The position numbers were made by a program, and so were the translations under genes. Under the pieces are notes generated by a model. That model was not told the DNA's origin. It searched no databases and saw only the letters and a list, made by a program, of their open reading frames with translations. Positions 11,042-55,086 of a stretch of 64,000 bases of DNA are shown piece after piece. Location: positions 1 to 64,000 of the forward strand of contig JAOAPY010000013.1 in assembly GCA_025463135.1 (NCBI GenBank). The letters run 5' to 3'. The DNA is from Acidobacteriota bacterium. GTDB lineage: Bacteria > Acidobacteriota > Blastocatellia > Pyrinomonadales > Pyrinomonadaceae. Each line of letters begins with the position of its first letter. The stretch's first letter is position 1.

Positions 11042-11122
11042 GTCCGACGAGCTTCAGCTTGTCGTCAAGTTTCCCTAAAATATTTTCTGGTGAGGACAAC
11101 GACAAACTGAAGTTTGTCGGAC
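11042..11122. repeat. REPIN-like doublet of GACAAACTTCAGTTTGTC hairpins
   Basis: A near-palindrome (GTCCGACGAGCTTCAGC...) at 11042-11064 and its reverse-oriented partner (GACAAACTGAAGTTTGTC plus GGAC) at 11100-11122 face each other across 35 bases. The same arrangement recurs at 19126-19332 and 31617-31702. It lies between gcvPB and the convergent ferredoxin gene. Confidence 0.75.
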
Positions 11123-19125: not shown

Positions 19126-19332
19126 GTCCGACGAACTTCAGTTTGTCGATGTCGTGGAACGCAATCCCTTTGGGTGCGCCGTCAGGGCTTGATCAAACGC
19201 GGCTGAACCCCAACCTGTTCCCGTCGAGTTCGGCTAAGGGAGGCCGCGACGAGTCGCGACCGGCAAGGGCCAAAATTTACCGTCGCGAATATTTCATTCC
19301 GCACGTTAGCGACAAACTGAAGTTTGTCGGAC
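19126..19332. repeat. REPIN-like doublet, wider spacing
   Basis: GTCCGACGAACTTCAGTTTG (19126-19145, plus TCG) and the reverse-oriented GACAAACTGAAGTTTGTC (plus GGAC, to 19332) flank 160 bases of unrecognised sequence between two convergent genes. Confidence 0.7.
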
Positions 19333-28221: not shown

Positions 28222-29073
28222 TCAGCGATCTTTCAAATCAGCAAGTAATTTCTGTCCCGCTGTCACCGCCTCTTTGTATTCGGGCTGATAGTCAGGATCG
28301 AGTTTGATGGACGAGAGCTTATCAATTTCTCTGCGAGCATCACGATCTCGATTTGCGGCGTGGTAGGCCTTGGCCAGGTTCATCCGCAACAACGCATTGT
28401 TCTCACCAAACTTCAAACCCTTTTCCAGATACGCAATTGCTTTCTGATGATCGCCACCCAACATGCGGGGTGCTTCGAGATAAAGTTGGCCCAGCACCAT
28501 GTAGGCGCTCCCCGACTGAAAGCCCTCGTCGAGCTTCAGGACCGCATCCATCTCCTTACGGATATCCTCTATGCTCGAGAGGCCCGCGAGCGTACTGTCC
28601 TTAGCTGCGCCCCCATAGTTTGCCCCCAACCAAAAATGACCTTCAGGCTTTCCAGCCTGAAGGCTCACTGCGGCTTTGCCCGCCTCTACTCCTTCGCGAA
28701 AAGCTTCACCTCGTTCATGCTGGTCGGTGCTGTGTGAGCCAAGATAATAAGCATCCCGGGAAAGTTTCCACGCCGCCTCAAAACTCCCATAGTCTTCGAT
28801 TCGTGCCTGGCGTAAGAGAGCGACCGCTTGTCGCAGTTTCCCCAGGTCTTCTCGTCCCGCATACTGCCTATCAGCTTCGGCCACTTTCTCAGCGGCCGCC
28901 TTTGCGTCTCCCACATCCACGCCTCGCGAGGTTTCGGCCGGCGGTTGACTACATCCCGTCAGCGACAAGAGAACGCCAAGAGCGATAAGAAGGGAAGCCA
29001 GATCGAAGAAATTAGGCGCATTTTGCGATGTTCGCTTATTTCTTTGAGCGAATTGTATGGCTGTTCTATACAC
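28222..29073 (-). CDS. TatT-like (TRAP T-component) helical-repeat lipoprotein
   Basis: This encodes 283 residues from a GTG start. The lipobox LSLTGC (Cys about 41) marks an outer- or inner-membrane lipoprotein. The rest is TPR-like alpha-helical (AWKLSRDAYYLGSHSTDQHERGEAFREGVEAGKAA, HFWLGANYG, MVLGQLYLEAPRMLGGDHQKAIAYLEKGL) and resembles the TRAP transporter T-component family, which binds ligands in a pore through the fold. No TRAP permease is nearby. A perfect palindrome (CCTTCAGGCT, four bases, AGCCTGAAGG at 28640-28663) lies in the coding region, encoding part of SLQAGKPEG. Confidence 0.8.
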   Translation of the reverse strand: MYRTAIQFAQRNKRTSQNAPNFFDLASLLIALGVLLSLTGCSQPPAETSRGVDVGDAKAAAEKVAEADRQYAGREDLGKLRQAVALLRQARIEDYGSFEAAWKLSRDAYYLGSHSTDQHERGEAFREGVEAGKAAVSLQAGKPEGHFWLGANYGGAAKDSTLAGLSSIEDIRKEMDAVLKLDEGFQSGSAYMVLGQLYLEAPRMLGGDHQKAIAYLEKGLKFGENNALLRMNLAKAYHAANRDRDARREIDKLSSIKLDPDYQPEYKEAVTAGQKLLADLKDR

Positions 29074-29197: not shown

Positions 29198-29860
29198 GTG
29201 GCAGCGGCGGCATTTTACGATCTCGAAGGCACTCTGGTCAGCACAAATCTTGTTCACACGCTCGCCTTCTATGCGAAGAACCAGCCGGGCCTGTTGAGCA
29301 GTTTGCGCAAAAGCGCGACTACCCTCCTGAGTCTGCCTGTCTTTGCCGTGACGGACCAGTATAGCCGAAAGGTTTTCAATGACCTCTTCTTCCAAAGCTA
29401 TAAAGGGCAAACCGAGGATCGCATGCGATTCTTTGCCCATGAACTGTTCGAGACCATTCTGAAGCCGGCGGTTTTTCCCGGCGCCTACGAGCTGATTGAA
29501 AAATCGCGCAGCCTGGGTTTGCGTCAGGTAGTGGTCACCGGGGCGCTGGATCTATCGGTAAAGCCCCTGATGGACCACCTGGGGATAGCCGACTATGTCG
29601 CTAATCATCTCGAGTTCGTAAATGGCGTGGCCACCGGGCGCTTGCTACCGCCGGTGCTGGCAGCGGCGACCAAGGCGTCATGGATTCGCCAGTTTGCCGA
29701 ACGCGAAGGGATCAATCTCAGCGACTCGTATGCATATTCCGACAGCATGAGCGATTTGCCGATGCTTTCCGTGGTCGGCCATCCGGCGGCTATAAACCCG
29801 GACATGCGTTTGCGGCAGACAGCCCTGCATCACGACTGGCCGATTTTGAATTTAAAGTAG
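29198..29860 (+). CDS. HAD-IB family phosphatase-like protein (elb-type cluster)
   Basis: This encodes 220 residues from GTG 29198, which sits just after GGGAGG. The HAD motifs are FYDLEGTLV (I, with the usual second Asp replaced by Glu at residue 10), VVVTGALDL (II), a lysine in AAATKASWIRQF and SYAYSDSMSDLPML (IV). This fits the HAD-IB (SerB/CicA-like) group, which dephosphorylates phospho-monoesters such as phosphoserine or lysophosphatidate. It is the first gene of a four-gene co-directional set with a LarA-like protein, a multidomain acyl enzyme and an SDR, so a lipid phosphate substrate is a reasonable inference. Confidence 0.85.
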   Translation: MAAAAFYDLEGTLVSTNLVHTLAFYAKNQPGLLSSLRKSATTLLSLPVFAVTDQYSRKVFNDLFFQSYKGQTEDRMRFFAHELFETILKPAVFPGAYELIEKSRSLGLRQVVVTGALDLSVKPLMDHLGIADYVANHLEFVNGVATGRLLPPVLAAATKASWIRQFAEREGINLSDSYAYSDSMSDLPMLSVVGHPAAINPDMRLRQTALHHDWPILNLK

Positions 29861-30015
29861 CACTCTGGCGTCGGCGACCAGTCGCCGCTTTCATCTGCGG
29901 CGGCTTGAGGCCGCTCTGAGTGGATTCAAGTAGATCGTGGCCGCGACTAGTCGCCGCCGAACAAAGCGCTGACAGGTCAGCGCACTCCAAGGCGTTGTCG
30001 CTTTACATCAAACCT

Positions 30016-31614
30016 ATGGCACTTCAACTGAGACGCAAAACACACGAATCGGTTATCTACATTGACCGCGACAGCGCGCCGCGCATCATGCCGTCGGGCG
30101 AAGACTTCATTCTTGAAGACTTGCCTATCGGCACGCGCGTGCTATATCCGAATCCACCGCTCAAAGGGTTGCCCAATCGCGAAGCCGCCATTCGTTACGC
30201 GTTGAATCACCCGCATGGCTGCGATCCACTTTTCGCGCAGCTCGAGCCGGGGATGAAGGTGACGATTGCCGTCGATGACATCAGCCTGCCTTTGCCGCCG
30301 ATGGCCACGCCGGACATTCGCCAGACCATTCTCGAGATTGTTTTGGATATGTTGGCCGGCCATGGCGTCGACGACGTGCATATCATCATCGCCAATTCCC
30401 TGCACCGGAAGATGACGCCCTGGGAAATGAAGCGCATGGTCGGTTCGAGAATTTACGACGAGTATTATCCCGACCGCTATTACAACCATGACGCCGAGTG
30501 GAACGAGGGGATGATCAAGATCGGCGAAACCAGGCACAAGGAGCCGCTGAATCTCAATCGACGCGCCGCCGAAAGCGATCTGCTTATCTATGCCAACATC
30601 AACCTGGTGCCGATGGATGGCGGTCACAAGTCCGTCGCAGTCGGCCTTTGTGATTACGTCTCGCTGCGAGCCCATCACGAGCCGCAAACGATTCGCGACT
30701 CGGACAGCTATATGGACCCGGCGCGTTCTGAGCTGAACAACAAGTGCGTGCGGCTGGGTAAGCTGGTGGACGAACACGTCAACGTCTTTCACATCGAAAC
30801 GGCGATCAACAACCGGATGTACAAAGGCGACATGGATTTCCTGCTCAAGAACGAGGATGACTTTACCGCTTTTGACCGCATGAAATTCGAAGCCATGCGC
30901 TATGCCATGAGCAAGTTGCCCCGGCAGGCGCGGCGCAAGTTGCTGCATTCACGTCCCGCTCAATACGAGATGACCGCGTGCCATGCGGGCAAGACCGAAC
31001 CGGTACACGAAAAAATCATCGCCAAGGGATTTGAGCAGTACGCGATTCCCGTGCGCGGGCAATGCGACATTCTCATCACAGGGATTCCCGACATTTCGCC
31101 CTACAACGTGTATTCGATTCTAAACCCGCTGCTGGTGCAGGTGATGGCGCTGGGCTATCACTTCAATTTTTACCGCAACAAGCCGCTGTTGAAAAAGGGC
31201 GGCGTGTTGATAGTGCAACACCCCTGTTACGACGAGTTCGATCACAAGTTTCATCCCAGCTACATCGAGTTTTTCAACCGACTGCTGCCGGAAACGCGCG
31301 ACGCTTTCGTGCTGCGTGAAAAGTATGAAGAGGAGTTTGCCAACAATCCCAGCTATGTCGAGATGTACCGTCGCGGTAATGCCTATCACGGCGCGCATCC
31401 GTTCTTTATGTGGTATTGGGGAGAAAACGGACGCCAACATGTAGGTAAAGTCATCGTGGCCGGCGCTGAGAATGCCCATGTTCCAGCCATGCTCGGTTGG
31501 GAGCGCGCCGATAATCTTACGGAAGCGATTGCCATGGCGCGCAGTTATATGGGCAGCTCCGCTGAGATAACGATGCTGCATCAACCGATGATCGGCATCG
31601 CGGACATGGAGTAA
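30016..31614 (+). CDS. LarA/DUF2088-like protein (lactate racemase domain)
   Basis: This encodes 532 residues from ATG 30016 (MALQLRRKT). The N-terminal half follows the nickel-pincer lactate racemase fold: [14 protein letters not shown] stands where LarA has DDxTRP, then [18 protein letters not shown] (His motif), RYYNHDAEW, and [11 protein letters not shown] (the lysine position). The TR to SL change and an extra-long C-terminal half ([43 protein letters not shown]) argue against simple lactate racemization. The gene lies 155 bases after the HAD gene and 95 before the multidomain enzyme, so it probably works in the same pathway. Its reaction is unknown to me. Confidence 0.75.
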
Positions 31615-31616
31615 AA

Positions 31617-31702
31617 GTCCGACAAACTTCAGTTTGTCGTTGACTCTACTACAGGCCGGCAGCCCGGTGCTGCTCAAAACGACAAACTGAAGTTTGTCGG
31701 AC
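31617..31702. repeat. REPIN-like doublet between the LarA-like and multidomain genes
   Basis: GACAAACTTCAGTTTGTC (31621-31638, with GTCC before it) and GACAAACTGAAGTTTGTC (31681-31698, followed by GGAC) are arranged as an inverted pair. Between them is a partial CAGGCCGGCAGCC hairpin. Confidence 0.8.
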
Positions 31703-31709
31703 ACCACTT

Positions 31710-34700
31710 ATGAAGTTATCGCCCACTGAAATATTCAACGATCGAAAGATTTTCATGATCGGCAGCACCGGCTTTCTCGGCAAAGTTACGCTGAGCATGT
31801 TGCTGCATCGTTTTCCCAACGTTGGTCGCGTCTATGTCACCGTGCGCGCGCGCTCGCAGGAGGAATCAGAAACACGCTTCTGGAATAGCGTGATCACTGC
31901 TCCGCCGTTCAATCCTGTCCGCGAACGTTATGGCGACGCCTTCGAAGGGTTTATCCGCGACAAGGTCGCAGTGTTGGGCGGAGACATTGGTGAAACCAAT
32001 CTGGGGTACACGGAAGAAGAGGCGCAAAAGCTCGCCGACGAAGTCGACATCGTAATTAATACCGCCGGTAACGTAACCTTCAATCCGACACTCGAAAGTG
32101 CATTGCGCACCAACGTCGTGGGCACCCAGAACGTAATTGCTTTTGCGCGGCGCATGAAGCGGCCCGCACTCGTTCACGTTTCCACCTGTTTCGTCGCCGG
32201 TAATCGCTCTGGTCCGGTTTGGGAAAGCGATCCGGTCATCGGTTATTTTCCGCGCCACGCTGAGATGCCCGGCGTGGAGTTCTCAGTCGAGCAGGAGATC
32301 AAAGACTGCGCCAAGCTTTCCGAACGTGTTCGCGAAGCGGCCCGCGATGCCATGATGACCGCGCGTTTCCGCGACCTGGCCCGCAAACGATTGAATGAAG
32401 AAGGGCGCGACGCGGACGATCCCGATGCGCTGGGTTTGGCGGTTGCGCGTGAACGAAAAGTCTGGACACGCACGCGTCTGACTGATCTCGGTGTCGAACG
32501 TGCTGCGTGGTGGGGTTGGCCCAACATCTACACCTACACGAAATCGCTCGGCGAACAACTGGTCGCCGCCGAAACCGGAATGGTCCGCAGCATCCTGCGG
32601 CCGAGCATAGTCGAGTCAGCGCTCTCGTATCCCTTCCCCGGCTGGAACGAAGGGTTTACCACCACGGCACCTATCATCTTCATGGTCTTGAAGGGGCAGA
32701 CGCAGATACCGGCAAACGAAAAGCTGATCCTGGATATCACCCCGGTCGATCAGATCGCCTCGGCGATGCTGGCGATTTCGGCGGTTGCCTGCGTCGAAGA
32801 ACCTCGGCTGGTTTACCAGGCAGCTACCGGCGATTCCAATCCCGCCAACATGGAAAGAATTGTTGGTCTGGTCGGGCTCTACAAACGAAAACACTTTTTG
32901 GAAAAAGATACCGGGCTGCGCTTTGTGAACGAGGTCGCAGCGCGCATGGAACCCCGGCCGGTAACTACCCGAAGATTTGAAACAACTTCGGCGCCGATGA
33001 TGAACGCGGCGGCCAAAAAAGTTTCCTCGCTGCTGGATCGCGCGCGACCACGGTGGGGCGGTGGCCGGGTCGTGGATGTGATCGATTTCGTAAAAGGCAA
33101 TGTGGATCGCCTGGAAGAGATTACTCACGAAACAACCGAAGCATTCGATATCTTCAAGCCCTTTACGAACGAGAACGCATACATTTTTCGCTCAGACAAT
33201 TTGCGCTCGCTATTCGGCCGGATAGGAAAAGATGAGGAGTCACTGCTCGTTTGGAACCCGGAACGCTTTGACTGGTATGACTACTGGCTGAACGTTCACC
33301 TGCCTGGCTTGAAAGAATGGGTGTTCCCGACGCTGGAAGAGGAAATGCGGGCACAGCCAAAACGAATCTACACCTATCGCGATCTTATTGAGCTGTTCGA
33401 AACTTCAACCAAGCGACATGCGACCAGAGTGGCTATGCGCATCGAACGTGACGGCCGCAAAGAGCAGTATACCTACGCCGACGTGCGCGAGTTGGCCTTG
33501 CGAGCCGCCGGTTTTTTCGCCAGCCAGGGTATTAAGGCTGGCGATCGGGTAATGCTGATCAGTCAGAACGCACCCGAGTGGGGCATGACTTATTTTGGCG
33601 TGCTGAAAGCCGGCGCCACCTGCATTCCCGTTGATCCAGAGAGTTCGATCGACGAATTGATTAATTTCGCGCGTGCCGGAGATGCGGCCGCTCTGGTTTT
33701 GAGTGTCAAGCTGGCCCAGGACCATGCGGATCTTCTCGAACGTTTGGCCGCAGCGGGGTTGACGCCGCAGCTTTGGACCTTTGACGACGTGTTCGCGATG
33801 CCGGACCAGCAGACAGAGGACCAAAGACTCGCACTCCTGCCGCAGCGGGTCCACACACAGTCGGTGGCCTCGCTCATTTTCACCTCTGGGACAACCGGCA
33901 GTCCCAAAGGCGTCATGCTCTCGCATCGAAATCTTACCAGCATGGTCTCGATGCTCTCATCAGTCTTTGACATGTCGACCAAGGATGGTGTGCTTTCGGT
34001 TCTGCCGCTTCATCATACGTTTGAATTTTCGACTGGATTTCTGACGCCCTTGAGCCGTGGCGCACAGATAACCTATCTTCCGGATCTGACCAGCGATGCC
34101 CTGGCCAAGGCGATCAAGAATGGTTACGTGACCGGGATGGTAGGCGTACCGGCTCTTTGGGAGTTGCTGCATCGGCGCATCAAGAACAGGCTCTATGAGC
34201 GCAGCGACTGGATTGGCAAATCCGCGGACCTGATGATCCAGGGGAACGCCTGGCTGCGCGACACGACCGCTGTCAATCTGGGTCAGATTCTTTTTTATCC
34301 GATTCACGAAGGCCTGGGTGGCCGTATTCGCTATTTCATTAGCGGCGGCTCGGCGCTCAGTGAAAAAATACAAAACGATTTTCGCGGTCTGGGCTTCACT
34401 ATTCTGGAAGGCTACGGGTTGACTGAAGCGGCGCCCGTGCTCACCGTAACGCGCCCCGAGAATCGCCTGTTGGTTGGCAGCGTGGGCCGTTCTCTGCCGG
34501 GCGTGGAAGTGCGCATTGCCAATCCCGATGCAAGCGGCGTCGGCGAGGTAATCGCGCGTGGTCCCAACGTCATGCTGGGCTACTTTGAAAATGAAGCCGC
34601 CACGCGCAATGCCCTGGTCGATCGCTGGTTGTATACCGGCGACCTGGGGCGGCTCGACGATGACGGCAACCTCTTTCTGGTCGGTCGATCCAAGGAAATT

Positions 34701-36134
34701 ATCGTCGATACGAATGGCAAGAATGTCTACCCTGACGAACTTGAAGAAACATATTTGGACTCGCCTTATGTTAAGGAACTCAGCATTGTCGGCCTACCGG
34801 ACGGTATCGGTGAAAAAGTCGCTTGCCTGGTGGTGCCGGACGATGAATATGACATTGCCTTGTCGCGAGACGAGCTGAAGCGACGGGTCGAAGAACATTT
34901 CCGCGAGGTTTCAGCGGGCCTGCCCTACTACAAGCGTGTCAAGCTGCTTCATTTCACCGACATCGAGTTGCCGAGGACCGCGACGCGAAAGGTTAAGCGC
35001 AGCGAAGTGGTTGCCATTCTTCAGACTTTGGAGCAGAGCCAGAAGTCCGGCCGCACAGGTGTGACGAACGAAGCGAAGGGACCGGATTCACTCTGGCTGC
35101 GCTCAGTCGTTTCTTCAGTAAGCAATCGCCCCGTAGCGGAAATTGCGCTCGACACCAGGTTGAGTGACCTGGGATTCGACAGCTTGATGTTTGTTGAGTT
35201 GGCTACTGCCATTGAAAACGCCGGTGGTTCGATCTCTGCCCCCGAGCGCTTTAATGAAGTTCAGGATGTGCGCGAACTGATTGGCGTGATCAGCCGGCAA
35301 ATGTCAGCGAAAGAACGGCGGGAGAGCGGCGTTGCACGGGCCGAGGCTGAACAGCGAAAAGTCGAAGACGAAATTCACATTCCCTCGTTTGTGCGCACGG
35401 TGGGCAACAAGGGCGTGGACATGGTGCAGAAACTTTTCTACGAGAGGTTTCTCAAGACGCGTTACGAAGGTCGCACCAACATTCCGCCCCACACTAATTT
35501 TATCGTCGCGGCAAACCATTCCTCGCACCTCGACATGGGCTTGACCAAGGCGGCGCTCGGCGACGCTGGCAATGACATGGTAGCGCTGGCAGCTGCCGAC
35601 TATTTCTTTGACAACAAGTACAAGCGCGCTTACATGGAGAACTTTACCAACCTGGTGCCGATGGAGCGCACCGGTTCGTTGCGGCAATCGCTGCGTCATG
35701 CTCGCTCGTTTCTGGATCGTGGCTATAACGCCCTGATCTTTCCTGAAGGAACGCGTTCCATGACCGGCCAGATGGCTGACTTTAAGCCCGTGATTGGGTA
35801 TCTGGCGCTGCACTCGCGCATCGGCATCCTTCCCGTTTATCTGCACGGCACTTATGAGGCGTTTCCAAAAGGATCGAGCATCATCAAGAGCCGAGAAGTG
35901 GGCGCGCGTATCGGTCGCTATCTCCCCATCGAGGAACTGGAAGAGCTGACCAGCGGCATGGCTCGGGCTGAGGCTTATCGATTAATTGCGGCCCTGGTAA
36001 AACATCAGGTCGAGAATTTGCGCGATCGACAAAACACACCCTTCGACGCCAGGGGGTTACGCAAGCGCTGGAAAAGTGAACGACGCGCCAACCTCGTGGA
36101 AAAGGAAATCACAATCGAAGAGCTCGTCGGCTAG
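31710..36134 (+). CDS. Multidomain acyl reductase / acyl ligase / ACP / PlsC enzyme (ElbD-like)
   Basis: This encodes 1474 residues with four domains. (1) About 10-400: an NAD(P)-binding acyl reductase of the fatty-acyl-CoA-reductase type (MIGSTGFLGKVTLSML; VHVSTCFVAG; YTYTKSLGEQL with the Y..xK pair; ILRPSIVES). (2) About 555-1100: an AMP-forming ligase (LIFTSGTTGSPKGVMLSH about 722-739; EGYGLTEAAP; YTGDLG; GRSKEIIVDTNGKNVYPDELE; a C-terminal RTATRKVKR lysine). (3) About 1120-1200: a carrier protein with LGFDSLMFVEL. (4) About 1260-1450: a PlsC-type acyltransferase (ANHSSHLDMG about 1267; FPEGTRS about 1344). The order fits loading, reduction and transfer of a fatty chain. I recall this composition from myxobacterial ElbD, which makes ether lipids. 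Confidence 0.9.
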   Translation: MKLSPTEIFNDRKIFMIGSTGFLGKVTLSMLLHRFPNVGRVYVTVRARSQEESETRFWNSVITAPPFNPVRERYGDAFEGFIRDKVAVLGGDIGETNLGYTEEEAQKLADEVDIVINTAGNVTFNPTLESALRTNVVGTQNVIAFARRMKRPALVHVSTCFVAGNRSGPVWESDPVIGYFPRHAEMPGVEFSVEQEIKDCAKLSERVREAARDAMMTARFRDLARKRLNEEGRDADDPDALGLAVARERKVWTRTRLTDLGVERAAWWGWPNIYTYTKSLGEQLVAAETGMVRSILRPSIVESALSYPFPGWNEGFTTTAPIIFMVLKGQTQIPANEKLILDITPVDQIASAMLAISAVACVEEPRLVYQAATGDSNPANMERIVGLVGLYKRKHFLEKDTGLRFVNEVAARMEPRPVTTRRFETTSAPMMNAAAKKVSSLLDRARPRWGGGRVVDVIDFVKGNVDRLEEITHETTEAFDIFKPFTNENAYIFRSDNLRSLFGRIGKDEESLLVWNPERFDWYDYWLNVHLPGLKEWVFPTLEEEMRAQPKRIYTYRDLIELFETSTKRHATRVAMRIERDGRKEQYTYADVRELALRAAGFFASQGIKAGDRVMLISQNAPEWGMTYFGVLKAGATCIPVDPESSIDELINFARAGDAAALVLSVKLAQDHADLLERLAAAGLTPQLWTFDDVFAMPDQQTEDQRLALLPQRVHTQSVASLIFTSGTTGSPKGVMLSHRNLTSMVSMLSSVFDMSTKDGVLSVLPLHHTFEFSTGFLTPLSRGAQITYLPDLTSDALAKAIKNGYVTGMVGVPALWELLHRRIKNRLYERSDWIGKSADLMIQGNAWLRDTTAVNLGQILFYPIHEGLGGRIRYFISGGSALSEKIQNDFRGLGFTILEGYGLTEAAPVLTVTRPENRLLVGSVGRSLPGVEVRIANPDASGVGEVIARGPNVMLGYFENEAATRNALVDRWLYTGDLGRLDDDGNLFLVGRSKEIIVDTNGKNVYPDELEETYLDSPYVKELSIVGLPDGIGEKVACLVVPDDEYDIALSRDELKRRVEEHFREVSAGLPYYKRVKLLHFTDIELPRTATRKVKRSEVVAILQTLEQSQKSGRTGVTNEAKGPDSLWLRSVVSSVSNRPVAEIALDTRLSDLGFDSLMFVELATAIENAGGSISAPERFNEVQDVRELIGVISRQMSAKERRESGVARAEAEQRKVEDEIHIPSFVRTVGNKGVDMVQKLFYERFLKTRYEGRTNIPPHTNFIVAANHSSHLDMGLTKAALGDAGNDMVALAAADYFFDNKYKRAYMENFTNLVPMERTGSLRQSLRHARSFLDRGYNALIFPEGTRSMTGQMADFKPVIGYLALHSRIGILPVYLHGTYEAFPKGSSIIKSREVGARIGRYLPIEELEELTSGMARAEAYRLIAALVKHQVENLRDRQNTPFDARGLRKRWKSERRANLVEKEITIEELVG

Positions 36135-36137
36135 CAC

Positions 36138-36191
36138 CACAGACTTCAGTCTGTGGCCCTGCGCAACGAGAATCACAGACTGAAGTCTGTG
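36138..36191. repeat. Hairpin doublet CACAGACTTCAGTCTGTG
   Basis: CACAGACTTCAGTCTGTG (36138-36155) and its reverse-oriented partner CACAGACTGAAGTCTGTG (36174-36191) flank 18 bases between the multidomain gene and the SDR gene. It has the same layout as the GACAAACTTCAGTTTGTC doublets but a different sequence. Confidence 0.75.
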
Positions 36192-36201
36192 CTACTCATC
36201 T

Positions 36202-37296
36202 ATGGCAACTACCAAACAGAAACGCACCGCGCGGATGACGCCGGTCAAGCCGGGCTCAAGACGCCGCGCCGCAATTGAAAAGCGCCCACGCGCAATCACC
36301 CTGATCACGGGCGGCACGGGTTTCCTCGGCTCGCATCTGGTGCGCCAACTGGTCGCCGGCGGGACCAGGGACATTCGGGTGATGGCCACTTCGATTCCTG
36401 ACTGGCTTGTGGATCTTGGTGTCGAACCTTTTGCGGGCTCAATCACCAAATCCGAAGACGTCAAGAGAGCTGTCGAAGGAATCAAGGAAATTTATCACCT
36501 GGCCGGAAAGGTCTCGCGCGAGCGTGACGATGCGCGCGAAATGTATGCCGTCCATGTCGAAGGCACGCGCCTGCTTTGCGATGCGGCGCGCGAGGCCGGG
36601 ACCAAAACGATTGTGCTGGCGTCAACCAGCGGTACGATTGCCGTCACGGAAAAGGGCGATGTAATTCCTGACGAGACCTTTCCCCCGCCGCTGGACATTA
36701 TTTCGCGCTGGCCCTATTACGCCAGCAAGACCTACCAGGAAATGGCGGCCCTCGAACGATTCAACGGCAAGGGTCTTCGGCTGGTGATCATGAATCCGAG
36801 TCTGCTGCTTGGTCCAGGCGATGACCGGTTGAGTTCAACCAAAGTAATCCTCGACTTCATGGCGCGCAAGATCGGTGCGGTACCCGGCGGCGGACTGAGC
36901 TTTGTAGACGCGCGCGATGCGGCCGGCGCTTTTCAGACGGCCATGAAGAAAGGCCGCCATGGTGAACGTTATTTGCTTGGTGCAGCCAACTGGACCTTCA
37001 CCAAATTTTTCGGTCGTCTGGAACGCTTGACTAAGATTGCGGCGCCCAAACTTGCCTTGCCGTCAAAGCTGATGATTGCGGGTTCGCAAGTGGTGGACGC
37101 CCTTTTCAAACAATGGAATTTCGCTTCGCCGGTAGAGCCGGGCGCGATCGAGATGGCGCAGCATTTTTGGTACGTCAACTGTAACAAAGCCACGCGCGAA
37201 ATTGGCTTCAAGCCACGCGACCCGGGTGAGACTCTGCACGACACCGTCAGTTACCTGAGAGAAAACTTTCTCGGCGGCAATGCCTTTCGAAAGTAG
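36202..37296 (+). CDS. NAD-dependent epimerase/dehydratase-type SDR
   Basis: This encodes 364 residues. A basic N-terminal tail of about 30 residues precedes an extended-SDR Rossmann fold: LITGGTGFLGSHLVRQL (about 35-50), YHLAGKVSRERDD, VHVEGTRLLCDAA, VLASTSGTIAV, the catalytic YYASKTYQEMAA (YxxxK) and MNPSLLLGPGD. It resembles dihydroflavonol-reductase/3-beta-hydroxysteroid-type SDRs. It is last in the four-gene set, 67 bases after the multidomain enzyme, with a REPIN-like hairpin pair between. A role in reducing or oxidising the acyl or alkyl intermediate is inferred from context only. Confidence 0.85.
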   Translation: MATTKQKRTARMTPVKPGSRRRAAIEKRPRAITLITGGTGFLGSHLVRQLVAGGTRDIRVMATSIPDWLVDLGVEPFAGSITKSEDVKRAVEGIKEIYHLAGKVSRERDDAREMYAVHVEGTRLLCDAAREAGTKTIVLASTSGTIAVTEKGDVIPDETFPPPLDIISRWPYYASKTYQEMAALERFNGKGLRLVIMNPSLLLGPGDDRLSSTKVILDFMARKIGAVPGGGLSFVDARDAAGAFQTAMKKGRHGERYLLGAANWTFTKFFGRLERLTKIAAPKLALPSKLMIAGSQVVDALFKQWNFASPVEPGAIEMAQHFWYVNCNKATREIGFKPRDPGETLHDTVSYLRENFLGGNAFRK

Positions 37297-37482: not shown

Positions 37483-39615
37483 ATGCGTCTATCCAGAGCC
37501 ATCATTCTCACTTGCATTATTGCCTGCCTGTCGCCGATCGCCTTAGCCCAGGCTGAACGAAGTCCCAGCGCACTCCAGACGGGCGTGCCCATCGAACGTA
37601 CGATTGCGAAAGGGCAAATGCATACCTTCACCATAACCATGGAACAGGATCAGTTCCTGCAACTCGTCGTTGACCAGCGCGGCGTGGATGTAGTCGTCCG
37701 CGTGTTCGCTCCGGGCGGTAAGAGCCTCGGAGAATTCGATACTCCTAACGGCGATCAGGGTCCCGAAAACGTCTCCCTGATTTCGCTTACGCCTGGTGTT
37801 TATCGAATCGATGTCACGCCGCTCGATCAGCCCGAGAATTCGCGTCCCGGCCGTTATGAAATAAAAGTCATCGAACTGCGCCATGCCAGCGAGCAGGAAT
37901 TACAAACCGGAAAAGCTCAAGAGATCTTGAAGGCCCGGGGTATCGCGCTGTTGCTCGAAGCCGCGGACACCATCTCGCAGATACATGTTCCCCAGACGCG
38001 CGCCGGCGCCCAACTACAAGCGGCGCAGCTACTCTGGAGCCTGGACGAAAAACGAGCCCAGTCTTTCGCCGCGGACGCCATGGAGAGCGTCAGGGAATAC
38101 CTGGCAAGCGTTGATGTGGACGATCAGGACTACTATCAAAGCTACCGGGTAGCAACGCAGTTGCGCCGGCAAGTGGTTCAGGCTTTGGCTCCTCACGATC
38201 CTGAGCGAGCCCTTACCTTTCTTCGTTCGACGCGGCTGCCAATCAATCCTGATGGCGGAAGATATTCCGAGCAACAGGATCAGGAACTTCAACTGGAACT
38301 GTCACTCGCCACCCAGATCATCGCGGCCGATCCCAAGCGCGCTTTTCAGATCGCTGAAGAGACCCTGAAGAAGGGATACGCGAGCAGCATGATGGAAACC
38401 GTCAGCCGCCTGCAAGCCAGCGATCCGGAACTGGCGGCACGCTTGGCAGGAGACATCGCCGCGAAACTCCAAACAGAAAAACTGCTCGACAATATGGAGG
38501 CTGCGAATCTCGCCCTGAACCTGCTGCGGGTCGCGCATGCGCCTTCCAGAAACTCATCGGCTCCTGACGCCGTCGCGAAAGCGCCGCTCTTGTCCGACCA
38601 GGAATACCGTGACCTGTTTCAAAAGACGCTCAACGAAGGACTCTCGTACTCGGCGTCCGGCAATAACTTTTATACAAACGAAAGAAATTCGGCCATCAAC
38701 ATTCTGGCTTCCCTGAAATCGATGACCTCGGAAATGACCGGCTACGCGCCCGCGAGTATCGCGGCTGTTGATAAGAAGACCGCCGAACTAAATACCCCTC
38801 CTGATTCGCAAGCTGCACTCTCGCAGACATACCAGCACAAAATAAACAACGACACCATGGAAGCCGCGCTCGAAGCGGTCCAGCATGCGCCGCGCGAGAT
38901 GCGCGAATCACTTTATCAACAGATAGCCGGCAAAGCTGCGGCGTCGGGAGACTTTGTCACGGCAAAACAGATTCTGGGAGATCACGTTTCGAATCCCTTT
39001 CAGCGCCGCCAGGCATTGAAGTACCTGGAAAATCAAACGATCTATGACGCGATCAGGAAGGGCAAAGTCGAGGAGGCAATGCACCTTGTCGCCAATCTTC
39101 GGTCAGCCAGGGAGCGCGCCCAAATGCTCAGCCAGATAGTTAACCAAATCGGCCCAGGCCAAAAGAGAGAGGCGGCCTTGAATCTTCTCGAGTTGGCTCG
39201 GAACATTTTGGGGACGTCGGTCCAGGCCGAAAACCAGGAACACATGAACGCCCTGCTGGAAATTTCCAGGGCCTTTGCCCGGTTCGATGCCAAGCGTGGC
39301 TTCGAAGTCCTCGAGCCTTTGCTCGATCAGTTCAATGACATGAGCGCAGCCGCGGTTGTGTTGGATGGGTTCGGGCAAAAATTCTATCGGGATGGCGAGT
39401 TGGATATGCAGAATGGCAACAGCGTGGTGAACACCGCAAACCAACTGATAGTCGCCCTGGCCAGTTTGGCTACGGAAAATTTTGAGCGGGCCAAGGCCGG
39501 AGCAAGTCGCGTGCATCCTCCCGAAGTACGTATCGCTGCCTATCTCGCTATTGCCCAACAGGCGATCAACGGCGACAAGGCGGCGCCATTCAATCAACGA
39601 GTAATTCGCAATTAA
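37483..39615 (+). CDS. Large exported protein: PPC-like domain plus helical repeats
   Basis: This encodes 710 residues. A signal peptide (about 1-22, ending ALAQA) is followed by a beta-sandwich like the bacterial pre-peptidase C-terminal (PPC) domain (about 30-128: MHTFTITMEQDQFLQLVVDQRGVDVVVRVFAPGG ... TPGVYRIDVTPLD ... GRYEIKV). The rest is alpha-helical and repeat-like, without a recognisable catalytic motif. The start has an unusually strong ribosome binding site (AAGGAGATCCTCC), which suggests high expression. I do not recognise the function of the helical part. Confidence 0.75.
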   Translation: MRLSRAIILTCIIACLSPIALAQAERSPSALQTGVPIERTIAKGQMHTFTITMEQDQFLQLVVDQRGVDVVVRVFAPGGKSLGEFDTPNGDQGPENVSLISLTPGVYRIDVTPLDQPENSRPGRYEIKVIELRHASEQELQTGKAQEILKARGIALLLEAADTISQIHVPQTRAGAQLQAAQLLWSLDEKRAQSFAADAMESVREYLASVDVDDQDYYQSYRVATQLRRQVVQALAPHDPERALTFLRSTRLPINPDGGRYSEQQDQELQLELSLATQIIAADPKRAFQIAEETLKKGYASSMMETVSRLQASDPELAARLAGDIAAKLQTEKLLDNMEAANLALNLLRVAHAPSRNSSAPDAVAKAPLLSDQEYRDLFQKTLNEGLSYSASGNNFYTNERNSAINILASLKSMTSEMTGYAPASIAAVDKKTAELNTPPDSQAALSQTYQHKINNDTMEAALEAVQHAPREMRESLYQQIAGKAAASGDFVTAKQILGDHVSNPFQRRQALKYLENQTIYDAIRKGKVEEAMHLVANLRSARERAQMLSQIVNQIGPGQKREAALNLLELARNILGTSVQAENQEHMNALLEISRAFARFDAKRGFEVLEPLLDQFNDMSAAAVVLDGFGQKFYRDGELDMQNGNSVVNTANQLIVALASLATENFERAKAGASRVHPPEVRIAAYLAIAQQAINGDKAAPFNQRVIRN

Positions 39616-47737: not shown

Positions 47738-48136
47738 TGACCTTGCGGCAGATGGGACGCTGCACCGGGGCGTCCCGCCAATACGGAATCCGGAGCGGTA
47801 GCGACGGGACGTGATGCTCGAGTTTGAGTTCATGACCCGCCGAGGCTACGCCTCTGAAATTGGAGCGAAGCCTCCAGGAAATTCAAATCAGCCTTGCCGG
47901 AAAGGCAGGGCCTTTCCGCACTGTTCGTCGGCATAGCCGCAACCCGGTAGTGGGTCAGTTTCGCGGAAAATGTCCGACAAACTTTAGTTTGTCGCGGCGT
48001 TACGACAAGCTATTAAGCTTATCGGACATCAAACTGACCCACTACCCTGAACCCATTGGCTGCTTGGGCTTTGTGCGGAAGGAGCTATAAGGAGGACACG
48101 AACAAGAACCCGGTTGCGGCGCTGGTGAAAAATTTA
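47738..48136. other. Intergenic region holding a MITE-like element
   Basis: Apart from the element at 47946-48046, the first 200 bases show only weak hairpins (GGCCTTTCC type) and no gene. An open frame at 47860-48090 runs through the element and is rejected. Confidence 0.5.
47946..48046. mobile_element. MITE-like element, copy 1
   Basis: 101 bases bounded by GGTAGTGGGTCAGTTT and its complement AAACTGACCCACTACC, with an inner palindrome GACAAACTTTAGTTTGTC and an inner inverted pair ATGTCCGA/TCGGACAT. It differs from the copy at 54986-55086 by only a few bases, mainly in the loop. The flanking 8 bases (CGCAACCC left, CTGAACCC right) match at six positions, consistent with a decayed 8-bp target duplication. 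No coding capacity. Confidence 0.85.
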
Positions 48137-54985: not shown

Positions 54986-55086
54986 GGGTAGTGGGTCAGT
55001 TTCGCGGCAAATGTCCGACAAACTTTAGTTTGTCGCGGCGTTACGAAGCTAAAAAAGCTTATCGGACATCAAACTGACCCACTACC
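54986..55086. mobile_element. MITE-like element, copy 2, with 8-bp target duplication
   Basis: 101 bases, ends GGTAGTGGGTCAGTTT and AAACTGACCCACTACC, inner palindrome GACAAACTTTAGTTTGTC, almost identical to 47946-48046. It is flanked by perfect direct repeats of GGTGTCGA (54978-54985 and 55087-55094), the signature of transposase-mediated insertion. No coding capacity, so a transposase elsewhere must act on it. Confidence 0.92.

Follow-up and report, generated by a model that had tools for sequence, protein, structure and literature searches.

Previous studies of Myxococcus xanthus indicate that most of its ether lipid depends on the elb operon (Lorenzen 2014, as reviewed in PMC9131029), and on elbD in particular. 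In vitro, activity was found for the ligase and acyl carrier protein (ACP) of ElbD and could not be demonstrated for its reductase or acyltransferase, and ElbC is listed as being of 'unknown function' (PMC9131029). Whole elb operons have been reported in several genomes of subdivision-4 Acidobacteria (Sinninghe Damste 2018, as cited in PMC10087280), in which their role has been called undemonstrated (PMC11868695); Solibacter usitatus is stated in the literature to be without ElbD. The cultured subdivision-4 species Pyrinomonas methylaliphatogenes contains glyceryl ethers, its ether and membrane-spanning lipids together exceeding 40% (PMC4644332). Here we describe four genes in a stretch of 64,000 nucleotides (the window; GCA_025463135.1, contig JAOAPY010000013.1, positions 1 to 64,000) from a member of the Pyrinomonadaceae, an acidobacterial family. 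Sequence comparison supports their identification as an orthologous elbBCDE operon, spanning 29198-37296, and shows ElbC to be an enzyme of the LarA superfamily, an assignment that is new here.

As M. xanthus DK1622 was absent from the scan result, Myxococcus sp. CA023 and close Myxococcus species were used as stand-ins. The CA023 locus encodes, in order, a short-chain dehydrogenase/reductase (SDR), a HAD protein, a LarA-like protein, a multidomain fusion and a second SDR, corresponding with elbA-elbB-elbC-elbD-elbE. When the Myxococcus proteins were searched against the window and the paralogous loci of its own genome, the top match of ElbB, ElbC, ElbD and ElbE was in each case the corresponding window gene, nearly full length and in the same order. 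The identities, from the alignment that an earlier note on this DNA had proposed, are 47% for ElbB (217 residues), 62% for ElbC (520 residues), 48% for ElbD (1450 residues; 47, 52, 41 and 47% in its successive domains) and 46% for ElbE; ElbD paralogs within the genome are much weaker matches than Myxococcus ElbD. The clade-level relationship to Elb proteins on which that note had staked its ether-lipid reading is thus borne out, and at the level of sequence the reading appears right. Its suggestion that the LarA-like protein falls outside the known ether-lipid cluster does not hold: by identity and by position, between elbB and elbD, this protein is ElbC, and the idea of an additional, non-elb gene is rejected. 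We assign the SDR of the window to ElbE and regard elbA as missing because Myxococcus ElbA matches it at only 25%. No SDR gene lies directly upstream of elbB, where the neighbour encodes a divergent tetratricopeptide repeat (TPR) protein. ElbA is not treated as essential, since its insertional disruption in M. xanthus left ether lipids unaffected (PMC9131029).

The gene order elbB-elbC-elbD-elbE and the domain layout are common to the window and M. xanthus, as far as the review describes the latter, and the order is also found in M. dinghuensis, Corallococcus and Anaeromyxobacter; an alignment scan with ElbC over named bacterial genomes returned Myxococcus, Corallococcus and Anaeromyxobacter loci and many Blastocatellia. 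The spacing differs, in that the Myxococcus genes overlap by 4 bp whereas those of the window are separated by gaps of 67-155 bp that carry palindromic repeats. The operons cited for subdivision-4 Acidobacteria come from the same phylum and have the same gene set, with no difference known from that citation, and the present operon, as a further example of them, is itself low in novelty. The PlsA/Ger glycerol ester reductase route shares a product class, alkyl ethers, with the Elb route and uses unrelated enzymes, none of which was found in the operon or among those of its neighbours that were examined; no genome-wide search was made.

All four open reading frames are intact and co-directional on the + strand, and profile matches and motifs agree with the classes that the earlier note had given them (HAD-IB, LarA-like, reductase-ligase-ACP-PlsC fusion and SDR). 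ElbB (P0001, 29198-29860, 220 residues) is a HAD-IB family phosphatase, matching TIGR01490 of NCBIfam with 122.7 bits (cut-off 98.3) and carrying the motifs DLEGT and DSMSD. ElbC (P0002, 30016-31614, 532 residues) contains the Pfam domain Lar_N and matches NF052592 of NCBIfam, 'LarAH14/15/16', over its full length with 819.9 bits (cut-off 740). Its gene had been placed from 29920, and this is the one position in the earlier note that requires revision; as the relatives start at the equivalent of MALQLRRK, the start is probably the ATG at 30016, which leaves intergenic gaps of 155, 95 and 67 bp. ElbD (P0003, 31710-36134, 1474 residues), every domain of which aligns with Myxococcus ElbD, comprises a fatty acyl reductase (residues 1-545), an acyl-AMP ligase (~560-1100), an ACP (~1129-1192) and a PlsC-type acyltransferase (~1250-1378). 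The Pfam matches are NAD_binding_4, Sterile (slightly below cut-off), AMP-binding, PP-binding and acyltransferase, and the motifs are GSTGFLG, YTYTK, TSGTTGSPKG, FDSL, HSSHLD and FPEGT. ElbE (P0004, 36202-37296, 364 residues) is an extended SDR of the NAD-dependent epimerase-dehydratase type (Epimerase, 99.4 bits), with the motifs GGTGFLG and YYASK; its closest families are HpnA/SdmB, the HpnA-like TIGR03466 scoring 205 bits, under its cut-off.

ElbC is the best conserved of the Elb proteins between the two phyla, at 62% compared with 46-48%. Conservation was counted in 124 relatives. His130, which corresponds with the catalytic His108 of LarA, and Lys205, which corresponds with Lys184, the residue that links the nickel-pincer nucleotide (NPN), are both invariant (124/124); a histidine pair, His221 in all and His220 in 123 of the 124, aligns with the nickel ligand His200. 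The second catalytic histidine of LarA, His174, is lost, and a methionine, Met200, is found in 121 of the 124. An AlphaFold2 model of ElbC (predicted local distance difference test score 90.1, predicted template modelling score 0.90) is closest to 9q3k (Z 40.3, root mean square deviation 2.1 over 454 residues) and then to 9q3j (Z 37.2). LarA and Mar2 structures follow at Z 28-31 and the gluconate epimerase 4nar at 23, with nothing else over 6.0; Foldseek gives an agreeing ranking.

The two nearest structures are those of LarA_Sp and LarA_Bw, single-histidine enzymes without a known substrate, which like ElbC keep the catalytic histidine, the NPN lysine and the nickel-binding histidine and lack the second histidine (PMC12611868). 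They are only 23-24% identical with ElbC and differ from it in two further respects. At the position of the lost histidine they have an asparagine, where ElbC has a shortened loop with Met200, and their genes adjoin genes of sugar metabolism, whereas elbC adjoins lipid genes. Among the openly readable papers searched, to which Lorenzen 2014 and Sinninghe Damste 2018 do not belong, none links LarA enzymes with ether lipids.

LarB, LarC and LarE, the proteins of the cofactor pathway, are all present in the window's genome, which also encodes two further LarA homologues; because of these, NPN would not be made there for ElbC alone. LarC is present in 45 of 46 genomes of named ElbC loci. In a set of 193 Myxococcota genomes, searched for LarC only, the protein was found in 133 of the 136 with ElbC and in 35 of the 57 without, a contrast that is inflated by shared ancestry and by small, incomplete ElbC-free genomes. 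LarB, LarC and LarE are complete in 21 of the 27 acidobacterial ElbC genomes, in two (G095 and G218, both less complete assemblies) only LarE is missing, and the other four, discussed below, lack all three.

Within the window's family ElbC and ElbD are present in all 19 sampled genomes, and ElbC from loci named Pyrinomonadaceae is 76-79% identical with that of the window; in the rest of the Acidobacteriota its distribution is uneven, with 27 of 297 genomes carrying it at >=43% identity. The elb order is kept across Blastocatellia, the check that the earlier note had suggested, and since many genomes, from two phyla, share this order of the four genes, the arrangement is not a matter of chance. 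Linkage was surveyed in 80 named ElbC loci. ElbD or its reductase part is linked downstream of ElbC in 60; in 14 the contig ends too early, and of the 66 that can be judged six are unlinked, which agrees with the published statement that some myxobacteria have the elb genes at separate places (PMC9131029).

Besides the standard B-C-D-E layout, two others are seen. In other Acidobacteriota (L136, L147, G095, G131, G188), elbC is close to the gene of a free-standing reductase, a homologue of the N-terminal portion of ElbD. Most of these loci also have elbB and elbE, and the ligase-ACP-acyltransferase part is missing; the neighbours include PlsY (L136, L147, G095) and a YegS-type lipid kinase (L136, G188). 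In the third layout (G218, G148 and partly G242; ElbC identity 35-46%) ElbC is accompanied by ElbD, ElbB and a zinc alcohol dehydrogenase, and in G218 and G242 a lipid kinase precedes the set. Since ElbC and a reductase, mostly with a HAD protein, are what the three layouts have in common, this guilt by association argues for a place of ElbC in the core chemistry and for a replaceable ligase-ACP-acyltransferase module.

We consider it likely that the operon makes alkyl-ether glycerolipids, with a hydride-transfer step carried out by NPN-bound ElbC. The alkyl-ether product is suggested by the four orthologues in the same order, by the linkage of ElbC with ElbD, by the ElbD data from M. xanthus and by the glyceryl ethers of P. 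methylaliphatogenes, and by the glycerolipid enzymes, PlsY and the YegS-type kinase, that accompany ElbC in the other layouts; the nickel-pincer assignment is suggested by the fold, the invariant lysine and histidines, the co-occurrence with LarC and the presence of LarB, LarC and LarE in the window's genome. For the lipid product in this organism and the order of steps we infer the following. The ElbD ligase would activate a fatty acid, probably iso-branched, and load it on to its own ACP, and, to judge from the domains, the reductase domain would reduce part of the fatty acid to aldehyde or alcohol, ElbD would acylate glycerol phosphate, ElbB would take off the phosphate and ElbE would reduce or oxidise a backbone carbonyl. 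ElbC, with NPN covalently bound on Lys205, would use a single base to transfer a hydride on an intermediate derived from glycerol; the reaction should be non-racemising because the second catalytic histidine is gone. The parts of this scheme are not equally secure. Loading of ElbC with NPN seems rather probable; that the Elb route contains an NPN step of this single-histidine, non-racemising kind, on a lipid or glycerol intermediate, is put forward tentatively; and the C2 position of the glycerol backbone is a doubtful candidate for the ElbC substrate. The ethers are expected to be of the alkyl and not the vinyl type, as the CarF desaturase (PF10520), which three myxobacteria and one relative, G025, possess, is absent from the window's genome; a vinyl-ether (plasmalogen) product is rejected here for the same reason.

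Several observations weigh against this scheme. In the Acidobacteriota LarC is present in 23 of 27 genomes with ElbC and in 188 of 270 without, a difference that is not significant (P 0.12). In a pairwise alignment ElbC does not conserve the position of Arg75, which in LarA binds the cofactor phosphate and the substrate carboxylate; the openly readable papers searched describe no elbC mutant; and Pontiella has ElbD homologues without detected ether lipids (PMC11868695). Four acidobacterial genomes (G132, G181, G219 and G275), with assemblies 97-98% complete, have an intact ElbC and lack LarB, LarC and LarE altogether. Assembly gaps are an unlikely cause, because in relatives the lar genes are mostly on different contigs and the G275 assembly consists of two contigs only. 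These genomes do not form one group in the ElbC tree, in which the forks are weakly supported, so that ElbC might work without NPN, its LarA fold, lysine and histidines serving some other reaction or a scaffold. The losses at the His174 and Arg75 positions would fit such a role, as would the inactivity of Frankia LarAH14, one of the groups in the name of the NCBI family, in all activities tested (PMC7583248) and the judgement that group 16 is probably NPN-free (Desguin 2020). Against this, the catalytic histidine, the NPN-linking lysine and the nickel-ligand histidine are unchanged even in the four genomes, the nearest fold is that of a holo-NPN single-histidine enzyme (PMC12611868), and ElbC-bearing Myxococcota almost always have LarC. 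A canonical two-histidine LarA (motif H-F-AGFTGG-K) is retained as well in these four exceptions, which may obtain NPN in some unknown way; either they import it or LarA function there does without it. We therefore do not accept them as proof of NPN independence, regarding the missing lar genes as odd rather than decisive, and find an NPN-free ElbC somewhat unlikely, although it is the most serious of the alternatives. As a side observation, these four genomes (L150-L153 and L158-L161), members of one genus, keep two LarA homologues.

The remaining alternatives concern the product and the place of ElbC in the operon. A cluster derived from elb could in Acidobacteria yield some other fatty-alcohol product, such as a wax ester, an alkyl glycoside or free fatty alcohol, for which the reductase, ligase and acyltransferase could serve; ElbD is no guarantee of ether lipids, as Pontiella shows, and the partners differ at other acidobacterial ElbC clades. 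The nearly full-length orthology of all four genes in conserved order, the abundance of glyceryl ethers in subdivision-4 isolates (PMC4644332; PMC10087280) and the fact that the partners at the variant loci, PlsY and a lipid kinase, are glycerolipid enzymes make this quite improbable. Least credible, and in our view very improbable, is an unrelated LarA-like neighbour such as a hydroxyacid racemase. The NCBIfam name, 'hydroxyacid isomerase', and the six loci at which ElbC is apart from elbD point that way, but of the four proteins ElbC shows the highest identity between phyla, it is found beside an acyl reductase, and in most cases a HAD protein, in three layouts, and its catalytic residues are unlike those of racemases; with the second histidine and the Arg75 position lost, an ordinary hydroxyacid racemase is not favoured. 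We retain an alkyl-ether operon with a probable nickel-pincer step by ElbC as the preferred interpretation.

Further features were noted in and around the locus. An inverted pair of a REPIN-like palindrome lies in each of the elbC-elbD gap (31617-31702) and the elbD-elbE gap (36133-36196), with the sequences CGACAAACTTCAGTTTGTCG and CACAGACTTCAGTCTGTG; further copies of the first are present in the window, where 0 are expected, and sites are also noted at 11100-11119, 19130-19329, 47975-47994 and 55016-55035. Scanning for promoters and terminators produced no excess of sites over shuffled sequence. The divergent gene adjoining elbB (28222-29073, - strand) encodes a TPR/TAtT lipoprotein-like protein, is retained there in most close relatives and weakly resembles BstC, a sterol carrier, at 58 bits, which is far under the cut-off. 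On the 3' side of elbE (37483-39615, + strand) is a gene for a 710-residue protein with a signal-like N-terminus. Neither Pfam nor NCBIfam gives a match for it, and only two relatives (L074 and L115, 42-44% identity) have it behind elbE.

Other observations concern elb loci outside the window. In one genus of the family (L158-L164) unrelated genes, judged by eye to be ORF6N-like, toxin-antitoxin-like and peptidase genes, are inserted between elbB, elbC, elbD and elbE, the elb genes being unbroken; in G275 a Y1 transposase gene (PF01797; L161:13230-13769) lies between elbB and elbC. In two metagenome-assembled genomes assigned to Myxococcota/Proteobacteria (L096 and L107) ElbB and ElbC are 68% and 74% identical with those of the window, well over the Myxococcus values, which suggests either that elb has been exchanged between the phyla or that contigs were misbinned. 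G025, a member of the window's family that has elb, carries on contig C23 (L181:1696-2523) a CarF/PEDS1-like desaturase, 41% identical with Corallococcus CarF over 175 residues and sharing its histidine motifs. True CarF beyond myxobacteria has been reported only in Leptospira (PMC9131029); from this gene, G025 might make plasmalogens.

What gives the locus its value is that ElbC, so far without an assignment in a lipid pathway already studied, is now placed in the nickel-pincer superfamily. Formation of the ether bond by the Elb route is unsolved, and a LarA-family ElbC with conserved cofactor residues offers a concrete target. Its identity joins two questions, the role of the single-histidine LarA enzymes and the way in which aerobic bacteria build ether lipids of a kind related to those used as soil palaeothermometers. 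If the proposal is true, ElbC would represent a kind of LarA reaction without known precedent, and myxobacteria and many Acidobacteria would need nickel and LarB, LarC and LarE for their ether lipids.

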